In this document: piece after piece, positions 39,135 to 50,390 of the stretch
Numbering within the stretch: position 1 is the stretch's first letter
How the letters are laid out: each line of letters starts with the position of its first letter
Origin: an uncultured SAR86 cluster bacterium
GTDB taxonomy: Bacteria > Pseudomonadota > Gammaproteobacteria > Magnimaribacterales > D2472
DNA: 64,000 nt
Direction of reading: 5' to 3'
NCBI GenBank assembly: GCA_902622845.1
Contig: CACNRI010000001.1
Location: forward strand, 248,001-312,000
Notes under the pieces: generated by a model
Database searches by the model: none
Seen by the model: the letters and a program-made list of their open reading frames with translations, nothing else
Told to the model about the DNA's origin: nothing
Made by a program: the position numbers and the translations under genes

Positions 39135-40569
39135 TTTGAGAAAATACTTTGAGCCAGTATTGTTTGGCTCAATTGGAGTATTATCTTTTGCACCTTTTTC
39201 ATTTAAATACGCGCTAGTTGTAAGTTACACCTATCTAATCTATAAACTATTTAGATCAAATGATAATAGGAATTTAAATAACTTATTTCTATGGTCGTTT
39301 GGGTATTGGGGAATTGGAACATCATGGATAATAGTGAGTATTTACTATTACGGAAATGTCAGTCTTTTCGGATCAATTTTATTATTCTTAATATTATCAA
39401 TTGGCTGCATCATATTCTTTTTTCTACCAATTCTATTGCTAAAAAGAGTTATTATTAACAAATCAAATAATCTCCTTTTGTTCGTGCCTTTCATTCTAAT
39501 TTTAGTTGAATTCGGTAGGTATTACTTTTTAGGCGGATTCCCATGGCTATTGCCAGGATACATTTTTTTAGATACCTCTTATGAAATCTTATATGGTTTG
39601 ATCGGCGTTTCAGGTTTATCTCTTTTGCTATATATTTTTGTAGCTTCAAATGTAGTTTTATATTCAAACAAAATTTATTTATTGGCGTTTAACTTATTCA
39701 TATTCATTAGCCTTATGTCACCAAATATTTTTGAAAGCGGTAAAAGTGATGGAGGTGTTATAAATTTAGCAATCATTCAGCCATCCACAGATCCTTTTAA
39801 GAAATTTGATAATGACTATTTAAATGACATTGAACAGGAATTTGTAAGTTTATCTTCTCAAGCTGCAGAAAAAGCTGATATTTTGGTTTGGCCCGAAGCT
39901 CCATTACCCTATACTTCAGAATCTGCAAGAAGCCAAAATTTAATTAAAAACATAGAAAAGCCATTGATTAGCGGATTTTTTAGTTATCAGAATGGAAATT
40001 TATACAATTCAATAATAAATTCAGAGCAAGAAATAAAATATAACAAAAGAAAACTTGTACCATTTGGGGAATATATTCCATTTGAAAGCTTTTTAAGGGG
40101 ATTAATTTCATTTTTTGATATGCCCATGTCAAATATGACCAGGGGTGAAAGTCCGAAAAAGATGAATGTAGGATATGGAAGCTTTTCACCACTTGTTTGC
40201 TTTGATATAGTCTTTGGTGAAATGGTTAGAAAAGACGTCAAAAGTTCTAATTATCTTATCAATGTCAGTAATGATACCTGGTTTGGTAATTCTTTCGGCC
40301 CTTATCAGCATCTTGAGATATCAAGAATAAGATCTATAGAAAATAACATTCCAATTGTTAGAGCCACAAATGACGGTATATCAGCACTTATAGATAGTAA
40401 AGGAACAATTGTTGATTATATGGGTAAAGGCAATTCAGGCATACTATATGTTAAACTTGTACCCACAGATGTACGCACGTTCTACAACAAATATGGCAAC
40501 CTGCTTCTTTATATATACCTCTTTATAGTTTCAATCAAATTATTTTTTGTTAGAATGAGGAATGCATAA
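39112..40569 (+). CDS. lnt: Apolipoprotein N-acyltransferase
   Basis: Adds the third acyl chain to lipoproteins in the inner membrane. The long frame starts at a TTG inside corC. A second TTG at 39136, one base after the corC stop, is an equally good start and would give 477 residues. An N-terminal block of membrane helices is followed by a nitrilase domain. The catalytic triad is Glu262 (WPEAPLPYT), the Lys in YNKRKLVPFGEY and Cys363 (LVCFDIVFGE). Several lipoproteins in this window would be its substrates. Confidence 0.94.
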   Translation: MASQLLLSLRKYFEPVLFGSIGVLSFAPFSFKYALVVSYTYLIYKLFRSNDNRNLNNLFLWSFGYWGIGTSWIIVSIYYYGNVSLFGSILLFLILSIGCIIFFFLPILLLKRVIINKSNNLLLFVPFILILVEFGRYYFLGGFPWLLPGYIFLDTSYEILYGLIGVSGLSLLLYIFVASNVVLYSNKIYLLAFNLFIFISLMSPNIFESGKSDGGVINLAIIQPSTDPFKKFDNDYLNDIEQEFVSLSSQAAEKADILVWPEAPLPYTSESARSQNLIKNIEKPLISGFFSYQNGNLYNSIINSEQEIKYNKRKLVPFGEYIPFESFLRGLISFFDMPMSNMTRGESPKKMNVGYGSFSPLVCFDIVFGEMVRKDVKSSNYLINVSNDTWFGNSFGPYQHLEISRIRSIENNIPIVRATNDGISALIDSKGTIVDYMGKGNSGILYVKLVPTDVRTFYNKYGNLLLYIYLFIVSIKLFFVRMRNA

Positions 40570-41089
40570 GTACTTTTTATTTTTAATAGTCTTTTCTGGT
40601 CTCTCAGGTGCTGATATTCTTGTTGATATCAGCCAACAACGACTTTTTCTGCTTGATAATAGGGGTGATCTTATTATTTCCTATCCTATATCTTCATCTT
40701 CATATGGTGAAGGCCAAATCGAGAATTCCTATAAAACACCTCTAGGTAGTCATATAATAAAAGAAAAAATTGGTACAGATGCTCCTAAAAACATTATTTT
40801 TAAAGAGAGAATAAATACTGGTAAATTTGCAGAAATCCACCATGATGACTATGATTCAGAAGATGACCATGTAACCTCAAGAATACTATGGTTAGAGGGG
40901 ACTGAGGAGGGTTTTAATAAGGGTGGTAATGTAGACTCTTTTTATAGATATATCTATATTCATGGCACTCCTGAAGAGGGCTTAATAGGTGAAAAAGCTT
41001 CTCATGGTTGCATAAGAATGTTTAATCAGGACGTTATTGAACTATTTAGCCTAGTCGAAAAGGGAACAAAAGTTAATATAGTATTATAA
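40562..41089 (+). CDS. L,D-transpeptidase (YkuD domain)
   Basis: Exported cell-wall enzyme that makes or anchors 3-3 peptidoglycan links. The 175 residues begin with a signal peptide (cleavage near GLSGA, about 17). The YkuD catalytic motif is IHGTPEEG...ASHGCIRM with His134, His148 and Cys150; PLGSHIIKEKIG is also typical. It overlaps lnt by eight bases. The stop lies in a TTATAA palindrome shared with the beta-oxidation gene. Confidence 0.92.
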   Translation: MHKYFLFLIVFSGLSGADILVDISQQRLFLLDNRGDLIISYPISSSSYGEGQIENSYKTPLGSHIIKEKIGTDAPKNIIFKERINTGKFAEIHHDDYDSEDDHVTSRILWLEGTEEGFNKGGNVDSFYRYIYIHGTPEEGLIGEKASHGCIRMFNQDVIELFSLVEKGTKVNIVL

Positions 41090-43249
41090 ATTACCAGCTA
41101 CCGATGATTTATTAAAGCCTGAAACAGGTTTTCTGTCTTCAGGTGCCGGCGCATCTCCAAACCTACCCTTAATTTCGCTTAGACTCCCTATTAAATCAGC
41201 CTTTTGCCAAAATTCAGGATCATTTTTAGCAAATTCATCTATTTTGGCTGAAATTACATCAAGACCTTCCATATTTGCATACTGCATTGGTCCTCCTCTC
41301 CAAATTGGAAAGCCATAACCATTAATATATACAACATCCATATCTCCTGATCGTTGAGCAACACCTTCTTCAAGGATTTTTGCTCCCTCATTAACTAGAG
41401 CCAATATGCATCTATCAATGATCTCTTGATCAGATATTTCTCTTCTTTCAAAGCCATTATCTTTAGAAACTTGTTCATATATAGCTTCATTTTCTGGAGC
41501 AGGGTGTGGAGCTCTAGAACCCTCAACATAGTTATAAAAGCCCTTTCCATTTTTTTGACCATATCTGTCCAAGTCACATAATGCGTCATTTATTTTTGCC
41601 GTAATTGGTGATTCGGTCCCACTAAGCTTTCTAGCTCTCCATCCTAAGTCTAAACCAACGAGGTCTAGCATTCTAAATGGACCCATGCTCATGCCAAAAT
41701 TCTCAAGTGCAGAATCAACTTGATGGGGGAGAGCCCCTTCTAATAGGAGTTTATTTGCTTGAGTTGTATATCCAAATAGCATCCTATTTCCAATAAACCC
41801 TGGTGCATTTAGAGATACAACTGGAGCCTTTTTAAGGGCCTTACCAAGCGACATAATAGTAGCAAGTGTTTCGTTAGATGTTTTTTCACCACGCACAACT
41901 TCCAACAACCGCATCACATTTGCAGGACTAAAAAAGTGAGTGCCCACTACTTTCCCAGGCCTTTTAGTACAATCTGCTAGGGCATCAACATCAAGCCCAG
42001 AAGTATTTGATGCAAGGATTGCATCATCTTTGACAGCCTCATCTAGTTTCTTAAATATCTCTAGTTTTAGGTCTAAGTTTTCATATACAGCCTCAATGAC
42101 AATATCAACATCAGAAATTTCTTCATAAGAAAGACCTGATGAAATAAGACCAAAAGTTTTTTCCATTTGTTCAGTCGACATTCTTCCTCTATCAACCATA
42201 AACTTATAGTTTCTTTCTATAGCTGCTAAACCTTTTTTAAGGTTTTCTTCATCTTGATCAACAATATGAACCGGTATACCAATGTTTGCAAAGCACATCG
42301 CTATTCCTCCGCCCATTGTTCCCGAGCCAATTATTCCGGCTTTTTTAATATCCATTTTTGGCGTCTCTTTGGGAACATCATTAATTTTTGAAGCAGCTCT
42401 TTCACCAAAAAAGATATGAATCATTGCCTCTCTCTGAGGATTCATAAGACATTCAATGAAATATTCAGCTTCTTTTTTCATTGCTTCATCAAAATCATCT
42501 AAATTTATTGCTGCTTCCACACATTGAATGATCTTCCCGGGTGCAAATTGCCCTTTTCTTGTTTTTGCTGCAAGCGCTCTCGCTTCTGAAATTATGTTCT
42601 CATCACCTCTTGCTGCGAGCACTTTCTCATTAAGGTTTCTTACTAGCGGATGTGTTTCATTCTTCTCTGCAACATCTTTAGCAAACGCAACAGCATCTTC
42701 TACTATGTCTCCTTCAGATAATGAGTCTATAACACCCATATCTAAAGCCTTTACAGCGGGTATATGCCTTCCTGAAAGCATTATTTTGAGAGCTTCAGCT
42801 GGCCCGACTAGACGGGGGAGACGTTGAGTTCCTCCTGCACCTGGCAACAACCCAAGATTTACTTCAGGCAAGCCTATAAAACCTTGCTTTGATGAGACTC
42901 TATAATGGCAACATAATGCTGTTTCTAATCCACCACCAAGAGCGGATCCGTTAATTGCGGCAATAACAGGCTTTGTTGATTTTTCAATTTTTTCAAAAGC
43001 GTCATGAATAGAAGGTCCTTCTATTTGTTGGCCAAACTCTGAAATATCTGCTCCTGCAATGAATGATCTACCTTTACCTGTAAGCACAATACCAACAACA
43101 CTGTCATCAGCTTCTGCTTTTTCCATACTCTCTATAAGACCATGTCTTACGCCGTCACTAAGAGGATTGACTGGTGGATTATCAACCTCAAGAATTGCAA
43201 TTCCATCGGTAACGCTGTAATTAATTTTTCCTTTCAAGACAAACTCCAA
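41084..43249 (-). CDS. Bifunctional enoyl-CoA hydratase/3-hydroxyacyl-CoA dehydrogenase
   Basis: Fatty-acid beta-oxidation enzyme of 721 residues in the FadB/FadJ class. The crotonase domain (about 1-190) has INGSALGGGLETALCCHYR and EVNLGLLPGAGGTQRLPRLVG with the catalytic Glu residues. The NAD-binding domain starts about residue 303 (GIIGSGTMGGGIAMCFANIG), with NTSGLDVD and HFFSPANVMRLLEVV. The C-terminal dehydrogenase domains follow (NRMLFGY, MGPFRMLDLVGLD). A thiolase partner is not adjacent, and the peroxisomal-like layout leaves fadB or fadJ open. It is monocistronic. Confidence 0.93.
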   Translation of the reverse strand: MEFVLKGKINYSVTDGIAILEVDNPPVNPLSDGVRHGLIESMEKAEADDSVVGIVLTGKGRSFIAGADISEFGQQIEGPSIHDAFEKIEKSTKPVIAAINGSALGGGLETALCCHYRVSSKQGFIGLPEVNLGLLPGAGGTQRLPRLVGPAEALKIMLSGRHIPAVKALDMGVIDSLSEGDIVEDAVAFAKDVAEKNETHPLVRNLNEKVLAARGDENIISEARALAAKTRKGQFAPGKIIQCVEAAINLDDFDEAMKKEAEYFIECLMNPQREAMIHIFFGERAASKINDVPKETPKMDIKKAGIIGSGTMGGGIAMCFANIGIPVHIVDQDEENLKKGLAAIERNYKFMVDRGRMSTEQMEKTFGLISSGLSYEEISDVDIVIEAVYENLDLKLEIFKKLDEAVKDDAILASNTSGLDVDALADCTKRPGKVVGTHFFSPANVMRLLEVVRGEKTSNETLATIMSLGKALKKAPVVSLNAPGFIGNRMLFGYTTQANKLLLEGALPHQVDSALENFGMSMGPFRMLDLVGLDLGWRARKLSGTESPITAKINDALCDLDRYGQKNGKGFYNYVEGSRAPHPAPENEAIYEQVSKDNGFERREISDQEIIDRCILALVNEGAKILEEGVAQRSGDMDVVYINGYGFPIWRGGPMQYANMEGLDVISAKIDEFAKNDPEFWQKADLIGSLSEIKGRFGDAPAPEDRKPVSGFNKSSVAGNL

Positions 43250-43300
43250 AATTTTTTTACATTATACCCAAAAAAAAGACCATTTATTTTATAAAAAGTA

Positions 43301-43328
43301 TTGATAATATATTATAAACGTGCATAAT
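43301..43328 (+). promoter_or_regulatory. Putative sigma-70 promoter for the 43.3 kb RNA
   Basis: TTGATA (43301-43306) and CATAAT (43323-43328) are 16 bases apart, with TG just ahead of the -10 box. A start site six to seven bases later falls at about 43335, the first base of the stem of the first hairpin. This agreement supports a real transcript. Confidence 0.5.
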
Positions 43329-43334
43329 ATTAAA

Positions 43335-43408
43335 TTGTCAGCACTCCTCCCCCTATTTTTGGGCTGACAAATCCTCTGAAAAATGTGGAGGGCTCAGGCC
43401 CTCCAAGT
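43335..43408 (+). ncRNA. Two-hairpin RNA: small RNA or leader of the small ORF
   Basis: The first hairpin has an eight-base perfect stem TTGTCAGC (43335-43342) and GCTGACAA (43363-43370) around a 20-base loop containing CTCCTCCCCC. The second has an eight-base stem TGGAGGGC/GCCCTCCA (43386-43405) with loop TCAG. The pyrimidine loop could pair with Shine-Dalgarno-like GGAG, either in the second stem or on other mRNAs, as in the anti-Shine-Dalgarno loops of some alphaproteobacterial small RNAs. No U-tract follows the second hairpin, so it may be a leader rather than a terminated small RNA. I do not recognise a named family. Confidence 0.5.
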
Positions 43409-43423
43409 CTTATAAGGAATATA

Positions 43424-43501
43424 ATGAGAGAGAATTTAGAAGTAATTTTTTTAGCAAGCTTATTTTTTGTTTCAGTACTTGCAATTGCACCTGTAAGCTA
43501 A
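43424..43501 (+). CDS. Small single-helix membrane peptide (25 residues)
   Basis: This short frame has a strong ribosome site, AAGGA at 43414-43418, five bases from the ATG. The peptide starts MRENLEV and then runs as one hydrophobic helix (IFLASLFFVSVLAIAPV) before a final Ser and TAA. It looks like a genuine small membrane protein, similar in size to CydX or KdpF, but I do not recognise it. It follows the two-hairpin RNA and precedes the glutathione peroxidase gene by 16 bases. Confidence 0.5.
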   Translation: MRENLEVIFLASLFFVSVLAIAPVS

Positions 43502-43517: not shown

Positions 43518-44039
43518 ATGAAAAACCTGTTGTACATATCTGCGCTTCTTCTTTCAGTTACAAGTTTTGCTTGTAATTCTTTGATTGACGAAAAGCTCAG
43601 AATACTTGATTCGACTGAATCTGAAAGTCTTTGCAAATATGAGGGTGACGTTCTTTTAATCGTTAATGTGGCCAGCAAGTGTGGATATACACCTCAATAC
43701 GAAGGATTACAAAAACTATATTCAGAATATGGTGATAAAGGCTTCACAGTAATAGGTATTCCATCTCGCGATTTTATGTGGCAAGAATTTACAGATGAAT
43801 CTAAAACTGCTGAATTTTGTGATGCAACTTACAACGTAACATTTCCTCTTTATGCAACCACTCGTGTTAGAGGAGATCAAGCACACCCACTATTCAAAAA
43901 ACTTTCTCGAGAATCTGGTAAAGAACCATCTTGGAATTTTAATAAATTTCTTATTTCAAAAGAGGGCAAGTTAGTGGGAATGTATGATTCAAAAGTTTTA
44001 CCAGAGTCACTAGCTGGCAAAATAGAAAATCTCCTCTAA
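43518..44039 (+). CDS. Exported glutathione peroxidase
   Basis: Thiol peroxidase of the GPx family, 173 residues with a signal peptide (hydrophobic 4-17, cleavage near SFA/C). The peroxidatic residue is Cys55 in NVASKCGYTPQYEGLQ, a Cys and not selenocysteine. WNFNKFLI supplies the active-site Trp and Asn, and GFTVIGIPSRDFMWQE is the family's central block. Export to the periplasm suggests a thioredoxin-like reductant rather than glutathione, by analogy with other Cys-GPx proteins. Its stop abuts that of rpiA (TAATTA). Confidence 0.9.
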   Translation: MKNLLYISALLLSVTSFACNSLIDEKLRILDSTESESLCKYEGDVLLIVNVASKCGYTPQYEGLQKLYSEYGDKGFTVIGIPSRDFMWQEFTDESKTAEFCDATYNVTFPLYATTRVRGDQAHPLFKKLSRESGKEPSWNFNKFLISKEGKLVGMYDSKVLPESLAGKIENLL

Positions 44040-50190: not shown

Positions 50191-50390
50191 AGCATTCAGT
50201 ACGGAGGCATAGAACCGATTCACCGTCACATATAATCCCCGAACCCGTTGTCCAGGTGGTGAATATCATGCTAAATCAGGCTTCTCTTAAAAAAAGGTAA
50301 TGCACAACATTAACAGAGGAAAATCACCTTATTAAAAATTATAGGTTCAAAAAATAACTTATATATAAACGAATGAACCAGTATGCACTT
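50190..50390 (-). ncRNA. ssrS: 6S RNA
   Basis: The roughly 190-base gap between zapA and fau is the standard place of 6S RNA, which binds RNA polymerase-sigma70. On the minus strand the 3' half is recognisable: GAGAAGCCT (near 50285), then ATTCACC (50264-50258) and a GAACGGGTTC-like hairpin region (GACAACGGGTTCGGG). The 5' half is AT-rich and diverged; a TAATG/CATTA hairpin sits where the central bubble partner should be. A possible closing helix pairs GCATACTGG (50386-50378) with CCGTACTGAATGC (50204-50192). A TATACT box at 50396-50391 could be its promoter. Ends are approximate. Confidence 0.65.

Follow-up and report, generated by a model that had tools for sequence, protein, structure and literature searches.

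A conserved predicted small RNA with a C-rich loop upstream of membrane-peptide and glutathione peroxidase genes in SAR86 bacteria

The window analysed here, i.e. a stretch of 64,000 nucleotides from a 1.19 Mb genome whose relatives belong to SAR86, an abundant ocean group with tiny genomes, contains what is very probably a structured small RNA (sRNA). As judged by comparison with related genomes, this RNA is conserved, its two hairpins covary, and it takes the form of a unit with its own promoter and terminator (Table 1). We consider it fairly likely that the locus is an sRNA gene with an operon behind it. In this scheme, a short RNA would be made from a sigma-70-type promoter, starting at hairpin 1 and ending at the terminator hairpin 2, and the C-rich loop of hairpin 1 (CUCUCCCCCUAU in most relatives) would pair, without Hfq, with the G-rich ribosome-binding regions of mRNA leaders and repress them by blocking translation, the best candidates being TonB-dependent receptors and a membrane protein of about 71 aa. 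Readthrough of hairpin 2 would yield an mRNA encoding a membrane peptide with one helix, followed by glutathione peroxidase; the sRNA and the antioxidant operon would thus share one promoter. Transcription, action in trans, targets, repression and readthrough are all predicted here from sequence alone.

The original prediction for this region is partly supported. The promoter, the two hairpins, the AAGGA site and the 25-codon ORF that it named are all present, and its reading of the region as a small RNA, a regulated leader or both is borne out at the sequence level by a conserved, covarying and terminated RNA followed by a conserved peptide ORF. The conservation of both is also what its argument that the region is kept for a purpose would lead one to expect. 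Absent from it were the role of hairpin 2 as a terminator in relatives, the link to glutathione peroxidase and a second locus of the RNA.

Table 1. Features of the RNA unit and its surroundings, in window positions
Feature	Position	Strand	Details
Fatty-acid-oxidation gene	41084-43249	-	Pfam 3HCDH_N and ECH_1; flanks the RNA unit on the side opposite the peroxidase
Promoter with upstream A/T element, TTTATAAAAAGTATTGATA...CATAAT	43288-43328	+	-35 TTGATA 43301-43306, 16-nt spacer, -10 CATAAT 43323-43328
Hairpin 1 of the putative sRNA, 8-bp stem and 20-nt loop	43335-43370	+	Arms TTGTCAGC 43335-43342 and GCTGACAA 43363-43370, perfect pairing; loop contains CTCCTCCCCC at 43344-43353
C-rich loop core CTCCTCCCCCTA (CUCUCCCCCUAU in most relatives), presumed target-binding site	43344-43355	+	Highly conserved in alignment A1
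Linker	43371-43385	+	CUCUGRAA frequent at the peroxidase locus of f1
Hairpin 2, predicted intrinsic terminator, 8-bp GC stem	43386-43414	+	Perfect arms 43386-43393 and 43398-43405; T-run degenerate here (AGTCTTATA)
AAGGA, likely ribosome-binding site of the small ORF	43414-43418	+	Sequence
Small ORF, 25 aa, one hydrophobic helix, MRENLEVIFLASLFFVSVLAIAPVS	43424-43501	+	ATG 43424, stop 43499-43501, 25 codons
Glutathione peroxidase gene	43518-44039	+	PF00255, 96.9 bits; 16 nt 3' of the small ORF; synteny
6S RNA	50208-50387	-	Rfam RF00013, 55.9 bits

Structure and distribution of the RNA

The 82-nt hairpin unit has a folding z-score of -3.28, which none of 200 shuffled sequences equalled, versus only -1.61 (equalled by 11 of 200 shuffles) for the 178-nt stretch that includes the ORF. 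Covariation in related genomes had been proposed as a check, and both stems do covary: across 57 distinct sequences, both partners have changed without loss of pairing at 11 of 14 pairs, i.e. six of the eight pairs of hairpin 1 and five of the six of hairpin 2. Any of the five measures of covariation was reached by none of 500 shuffles, and all five fell when the partners were slid against each other. The consensus structure consists of two simple hairpins only. In alignment A1, which lacks L041, at a contig end, and L063, whose loop is degenerate, and in which the bounds of L054 were cut by hand, the stems vary and the loop core CUCUCCCCCUAU is nearly constant; the loop reads CUCCUCCCCC in the own genome and CUCUCCCCC in most relatives. 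In the f4 family the RNA is minimal: hairpin 1, which retains the C-run core in its loop, is separated by a short spacer from a GGGGC / GCCCC hairpin, with a T-rich tail in most cases.

The promoter consensus taken by itself is not significant, six sites having been found where 4.1 are expected, and we judge the unit to be real because it is conserved in relatives. Upstream sequence of 52 nt or more was available for 58 of 60 loci, and 57 of these carry a TTGATA-like box, a spacer of 15-18 nt and YATAAT or TAnnnT before hairpin 1. At least five T within the 9 nt after the hairpin 2 stem were present at 41 of 52 loci from other genera, compared with one of eight from the own genus. Hairpin 2 thus appears to be an intrinsic terminator in most relatives, and promoter, C-rich hairpin and terminator would therefore form a short sRNA, with the own promoter and intrinsic terminator of a trans-acting base-pairing RNA; in the own genus the T-run is degenerate, and more readthrough is therefore expected here.

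Within the own genus, the locus is matched at 93-100 % identity in eight of ten genomes, the own one included. A covariance model built from relatives in which the locus is conserved matched 139 of the 203 genomes of the order at E <= 0.05, including 98 of 107 in f1 (95 of them at E <= 1.2e-7) and 19 of 21 in f4 (E 8e-7 to 1e-4), together with weak matches in f3 (18) and f2 (four). Nine of the 107 f1 genomes had no match, including G004 (90 % completeness), also without the sRNA-side peroxidase. Nine f2/f3 matches from genera other than g15 (L426-L434) proved to be plain terminators without the C-rich loop, as did one of the six stretches read from the f3 genus g15 (L153). The other five g15 stretches (L151, L152 and L154-L156) share, near 2035-2110, a C-rich hairpin of the form CCCGTCAGC-(loop with CTCTCCCC)-GCTGACGGG, which adjoins an EngB-like GTPase gene where annotated (L154) and is possibly a diverged relative of the sRNA.

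In a sample of the class, six of 369 genomes matched the model, three being SAR86 and the other three (L135-L137) again showing plain terminators without a C-rich loop. The exact pattern of hairpin 1 was found in 59 stretches among 84,980 species genomes, of which 49 are titled SAR86 cluster and 10 Gammaproteobacteria, gamma proteobacterium or Proteobacteria; viral contigs held no stretch with the exact loop pattern. By these searches, the RNA is limited to SAR86 in the collections covered. Rfam 15 has no match at the locus (best 18.5 bits against a gathering threshold of 85.6) and none for nine relatives, in agreement with the earlier statement that no named family is recognizable. Among the papers searched, none concerns sRNAs of SAR86 as judged by title, and subscription papers, including marine small-RNA papers of 2009, may hold an earlier description.

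Eleven further f1 matches that were fetched score 47-62 bits and two score 36 bits (L149 and L157). Six of these are annotated, and in five (L139, L144, L145, L146 and L149) an exonuclease-like gene, the same in each case and presumably sbcB (RNase_H_2 28 bits and RNase_T 22 bits at L139), is convergent with the RNA, while the sixth, L141, lies elsewhere. This second locus, found in genera g2, g3 and g6, lacks the peptide and the peroxidase; in the seven sequences aligned it agrees with the peroxidase locus in promoter, loop and terminator. The promoter is largely kept in f4 as well, and a longer A/T promoter motif (consensus TATTGATAATTAATTATAAATATATATAATA) is common to the peroxidase locus and these seven and is partly found in f4. 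Considering that promoter, hairpin 1 and terminator are kept there without peptide or peroxidase, the RNA appears to stand alone. The own genome harbours the first locus only, in one copy.

The membrane peptide and the peroxidase gene

Synteny of the peptide and the peroxidase gene with the RNA is evident from the 83 peroxidase loci compared: both hairpins lie upstream of the gene at 55 of 57 loci in f1, at all five in f4 and at none of 21 in f2/f3, where a frame resembling, by eye, the L,D-transpeptidase of the window (40562-41089) reaches the peroxidase. The frame 3' of hairpin 2 encodes a peptide of 24-33 aa with one hydrophobic helix at 59 of 62 loci; the three exceptions are all from f4: in two a different frame comes first, and in one the peptide forms the end of a longer frame. 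L094 and L095 (f4) carry a second small hydrophobic ORF, MKEYMNNLFSFCKEYPVWAAVFFSFGYLIGEIYVV, placed between the sRNA and the peptide found elsewhere; L098 (f4) has a frame there that looks similar to it by eye.

Residues E6, L10 and F14 are invariant among the 22 members chosen for alignment A3. The pN/pS ratio of 0.27 over 199 pairs (leaving out L074, L094, L095, L098, pairs of unequal length and pairs below 65 % identity) indicates that the peptide is under purifying selection. Searches with its profile gave E values of 8e-17 to 2e-6 in f1 and f4, whereas the best value in f2/f3 was 9.9e-4. Pfam, NCBIfam and PDB returned no match apart from a single NCBIfam hit at E 0.013 for one of the 22 members. 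The peroxidase gene is probably read from the same promoter as the sRNA.

Candidate targets of the loop and alternative readings

Searches of 61 SAR86 genomes for Hfq were negative, whereas the control was positive in Escherichia coli and four others of 14 known genomes. We infer that the RNA probably acts in trans through its loop. The original prediction had offered an anti-Shine-Dalgarno sRNA acting on other mRNAs, which did not hold for start sites in general: complementarity to the own loop was not enriched at the start regions of 433 genes from 464 kb (start region minus coding sequence 0.55, compared with 0.68 +/- 0.18 for shuffled loops). More promising are the G-rich starts of certain gene classes.

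Of 89 TonB-dependent receptors of f1 (102 rows, 90 taken, 89 counted), 43 have GGGG within 20 nt upstream of the start, compared with five of 431 other genes, the two sets being not strictly comparable because starts were called differently, i.e. as the first ATG in one genome for the control genes and by a signal-peptide rule for the receptors, with visible errors in some receptor rows (L307, L316, L374 and L379, kept in the count). The receptor counts do not include L400, L362, L454 and L461, for which no start could be used. In roughly half of the SAR86 receptor genes inspected, from f1, f2 and f3, the start is preceded by GGGG(G)A and not by the usual AGGAG (e.g. L326, L384 and L385 of the own genome, L424 and L425). 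One of the five non-receptor GGGG starts belongs to an FtsZ-like gene, named by eye (L236:1456-2574, minus strand), with the start region AAGGGGAGATAAAATG.

Receptors of six f2/f3 genomes are equally rich in GGGG (31 of 67, from 76 rows of which 70 were taken; p 0.87 against f1), and therefore the receptor G-runs need no sRNA as an explanation. Two of the six, G041 and G050, belong to genus g15, in which the possibly diverged hairpin occurs, but without them the count is still 26 of 54. The sRNA may have taken over a start signature that was already in place, f2/f3 may have another such RNA, or the two may be unconnected. TAGGGG was more frequent in f1 (16 of 89 receptors, against 3 of 67 in f2/f3; p 0.013, one of ten patterns, uncorrected).

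Evidence on individual genes comes from the pattern TAGGGGGAG-N1-10-ATG, found in 49 rows in 99 f1 genomes, six of them being the antisense of the sRNA itself, versus 17 for the reversed pattern. Thirty TAGGGGGAG loci were read, comprising six receptors (named by eye, one cut by a contig end and L294 also identified by PF07715), three copies of the 71-aa gene, one other long frame and 20 without an evident start, two of which are sRNA antisense. The longest perfect complements to a genome's own loop, chosen after inspection, measure 14 nt (L424) and 12 nt (L326, own genome) in receptors; those in the 71-aa gene measure 14, 14, 11 and 9 nt in g8 (three genomes) and g5, and in the own genome the homologous gene (L237, 41 % identity) carries TATAGGGGGGAA. 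This membrane protein of about 71 aa is conserved (L291, L292, L293, L274 and L237:16113-16331), begins with MDNA in four of these five, has no Pfam match and shows a TAGGGGG(G) start region in three genera. When loops were swapped between genomes, the own loop did better, but not significantly (equalled by 97 and 154 of 720 permutations). Because of the rough start calls, the weak preference in the loop swap and the GGGG of f2/f3, our confidence is high for the RNA and middling for its targets; that receptors and the 71-aa protein are the main ones is a serious possibility which stops a little short of probable.

The evidence can also be read in terms of cis action only, hairpin 2 being an attenuator of the peptide-peroxidase operon, relieved by loop or linker pairing, a protein or a ligand, and the short RNA a by-product. 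The tight linkage of the RNA to peptide and peroxidase in f1 and f4 speaks for such a leader, as does the linker motif CUCUGRAA, seen at the peroxidase locus and neither at the second locus nor in f4. Pairing of the loop with GGAG in hairpin 2, proposed earlier as a structural switch, is possible in energy terms (-9.5 kcal/mol in the own genus), but the loop and the terminator arm do not covary over 60 loci, i.e. own partners average -8.82 against -8.81 when permuted, 722 of 2000 permutations equalling them, in what is a weak test as both sides vary little. Considering, moreover, that the consensus holds two simple hairpins only and that the second locus, followed by a convergent gene, still has all three of promoter, loop and terminator, we regard a leader without any action in trans as unlikely.

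Still less likely is that the C-rich loop binds a protein, as a decoy or sponge, and not mRNAs. The loop core is more constant than varied targets would require and Hfq was not found, both of which would suit a protein partner, yet the long matches to mRNA leaders point the other way, and the loop lacks the GGA that CsrA decoy loops carry; we know of no bacterial regulator that binds C-runs. A type I toxin-antitoxin pair, in which the hydrophobic peptide would be the toxin and the adjacent RNA its antidote, is very improbable: a small hydrophobic peptide does adjoin the sRNA and both occur in the same families, but the RNA lies upstream on the same strand and is not antisense to the peptide gene, whose start region (AAGGA, or AAGGTT in many relatives) matches the loop briefly at most. 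In addition, the gene order with the peroxidase is stable, and no such peptide accompanies the second locus in the annotated stretches.

Returning to the sRNA acting in trans, it is tempting to speculate that a one-loop C-run RNA serves as a global brake on receptor synthesis and that a leaky terminator couples this brake to peptide and peroxidase. This wider idea is tentative; if true, receptor load and oxidative defence would be set together in SAR86. The GGGG start signature of the receptor genes, seen in three SAR86 families, may itself offer a point at which nutrient uptake is controlled in the oligotrophic ocean. With a conserved sRNA in the absence of detectable Hfq, a computed structure, a second copy and predicted targets, post-transcriptional control in SAR86 becomes testable from existing metatranscriptomes.

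Comparison with known systems

RepG of Helicobacter pylori and RsaE of Staphylococcus aureus are not known to need Hfq, and CcsR presumably carries the CCUCCUCCC motif. RsaE has a UCCC motif by which, it has been proposed, it pairs with numerous mRNAs and blocks the ribosomal complex (PMC9266662); it comes from a different phylum than SAR86, and the likeness is one of motif. The alphar14 / cuckoo sRNAs and CcsR1-4 present an anti-SD CCUCCUCCC-type motif in hairpin loops, the stems varying and the loop being fixed (PMC10746234, PMC3927594, PMC8625941). The SAR86 RNA likewise has an anti-SD pyrimidine motif, similar but not identical, in an unpaired loop on a variable stem. In contrast to the three or four hairpins with the same loop in alphar14 / cuckoo and CcsR, it has one such hairpin, with a C-run in the loop, and so falls short of the three or more CCUCCUCCC-loop hairpins expected of an alphar14 / cuckoo member. 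CcsR is induced by oxidative stress and tied to a small-protein gene, which recalls the position of the SAR86 RNA beside peptide and peroxidase; however, CcsR is cut from the 3' UTR of ccaF1, whereas the SAR86 RNA has its own promoter and lies 5' of the peptide (PMC10746234, PMC3927594, PMC8625941).

As in our proposal, RepG uses a C/U-rich loop to pair with a G-run, which lies in the 5' UTR of an mRNA for a chemotaxis receptor, although this loop is the terminator's own and the target is a long, length-variable G-repeat upstream of the RBS (PMC8295292). SisA-D, or alphaR8, of Caulobacter crescentus are Hfq-associated sRNAs of Alphaproteobacteria with a pyrimidine-rich UUUCCUCCCU that pairs near the start codon of the mRNA of a TonB-dependent receptor (PMC12559287). 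Their UUUCCUCCCU is single-stranded after a weak hairpin, whereas the C-rich stretch of the SAR86 RNA lies in a hairpin loop and the 61 SAR86 genomes yielded no Hfq. The likeness, one of general form, extends to a short pyrimidine-rich stretch, an intrinsic terminator, several sibling copies and an oligotrophic host (PMC12559287).
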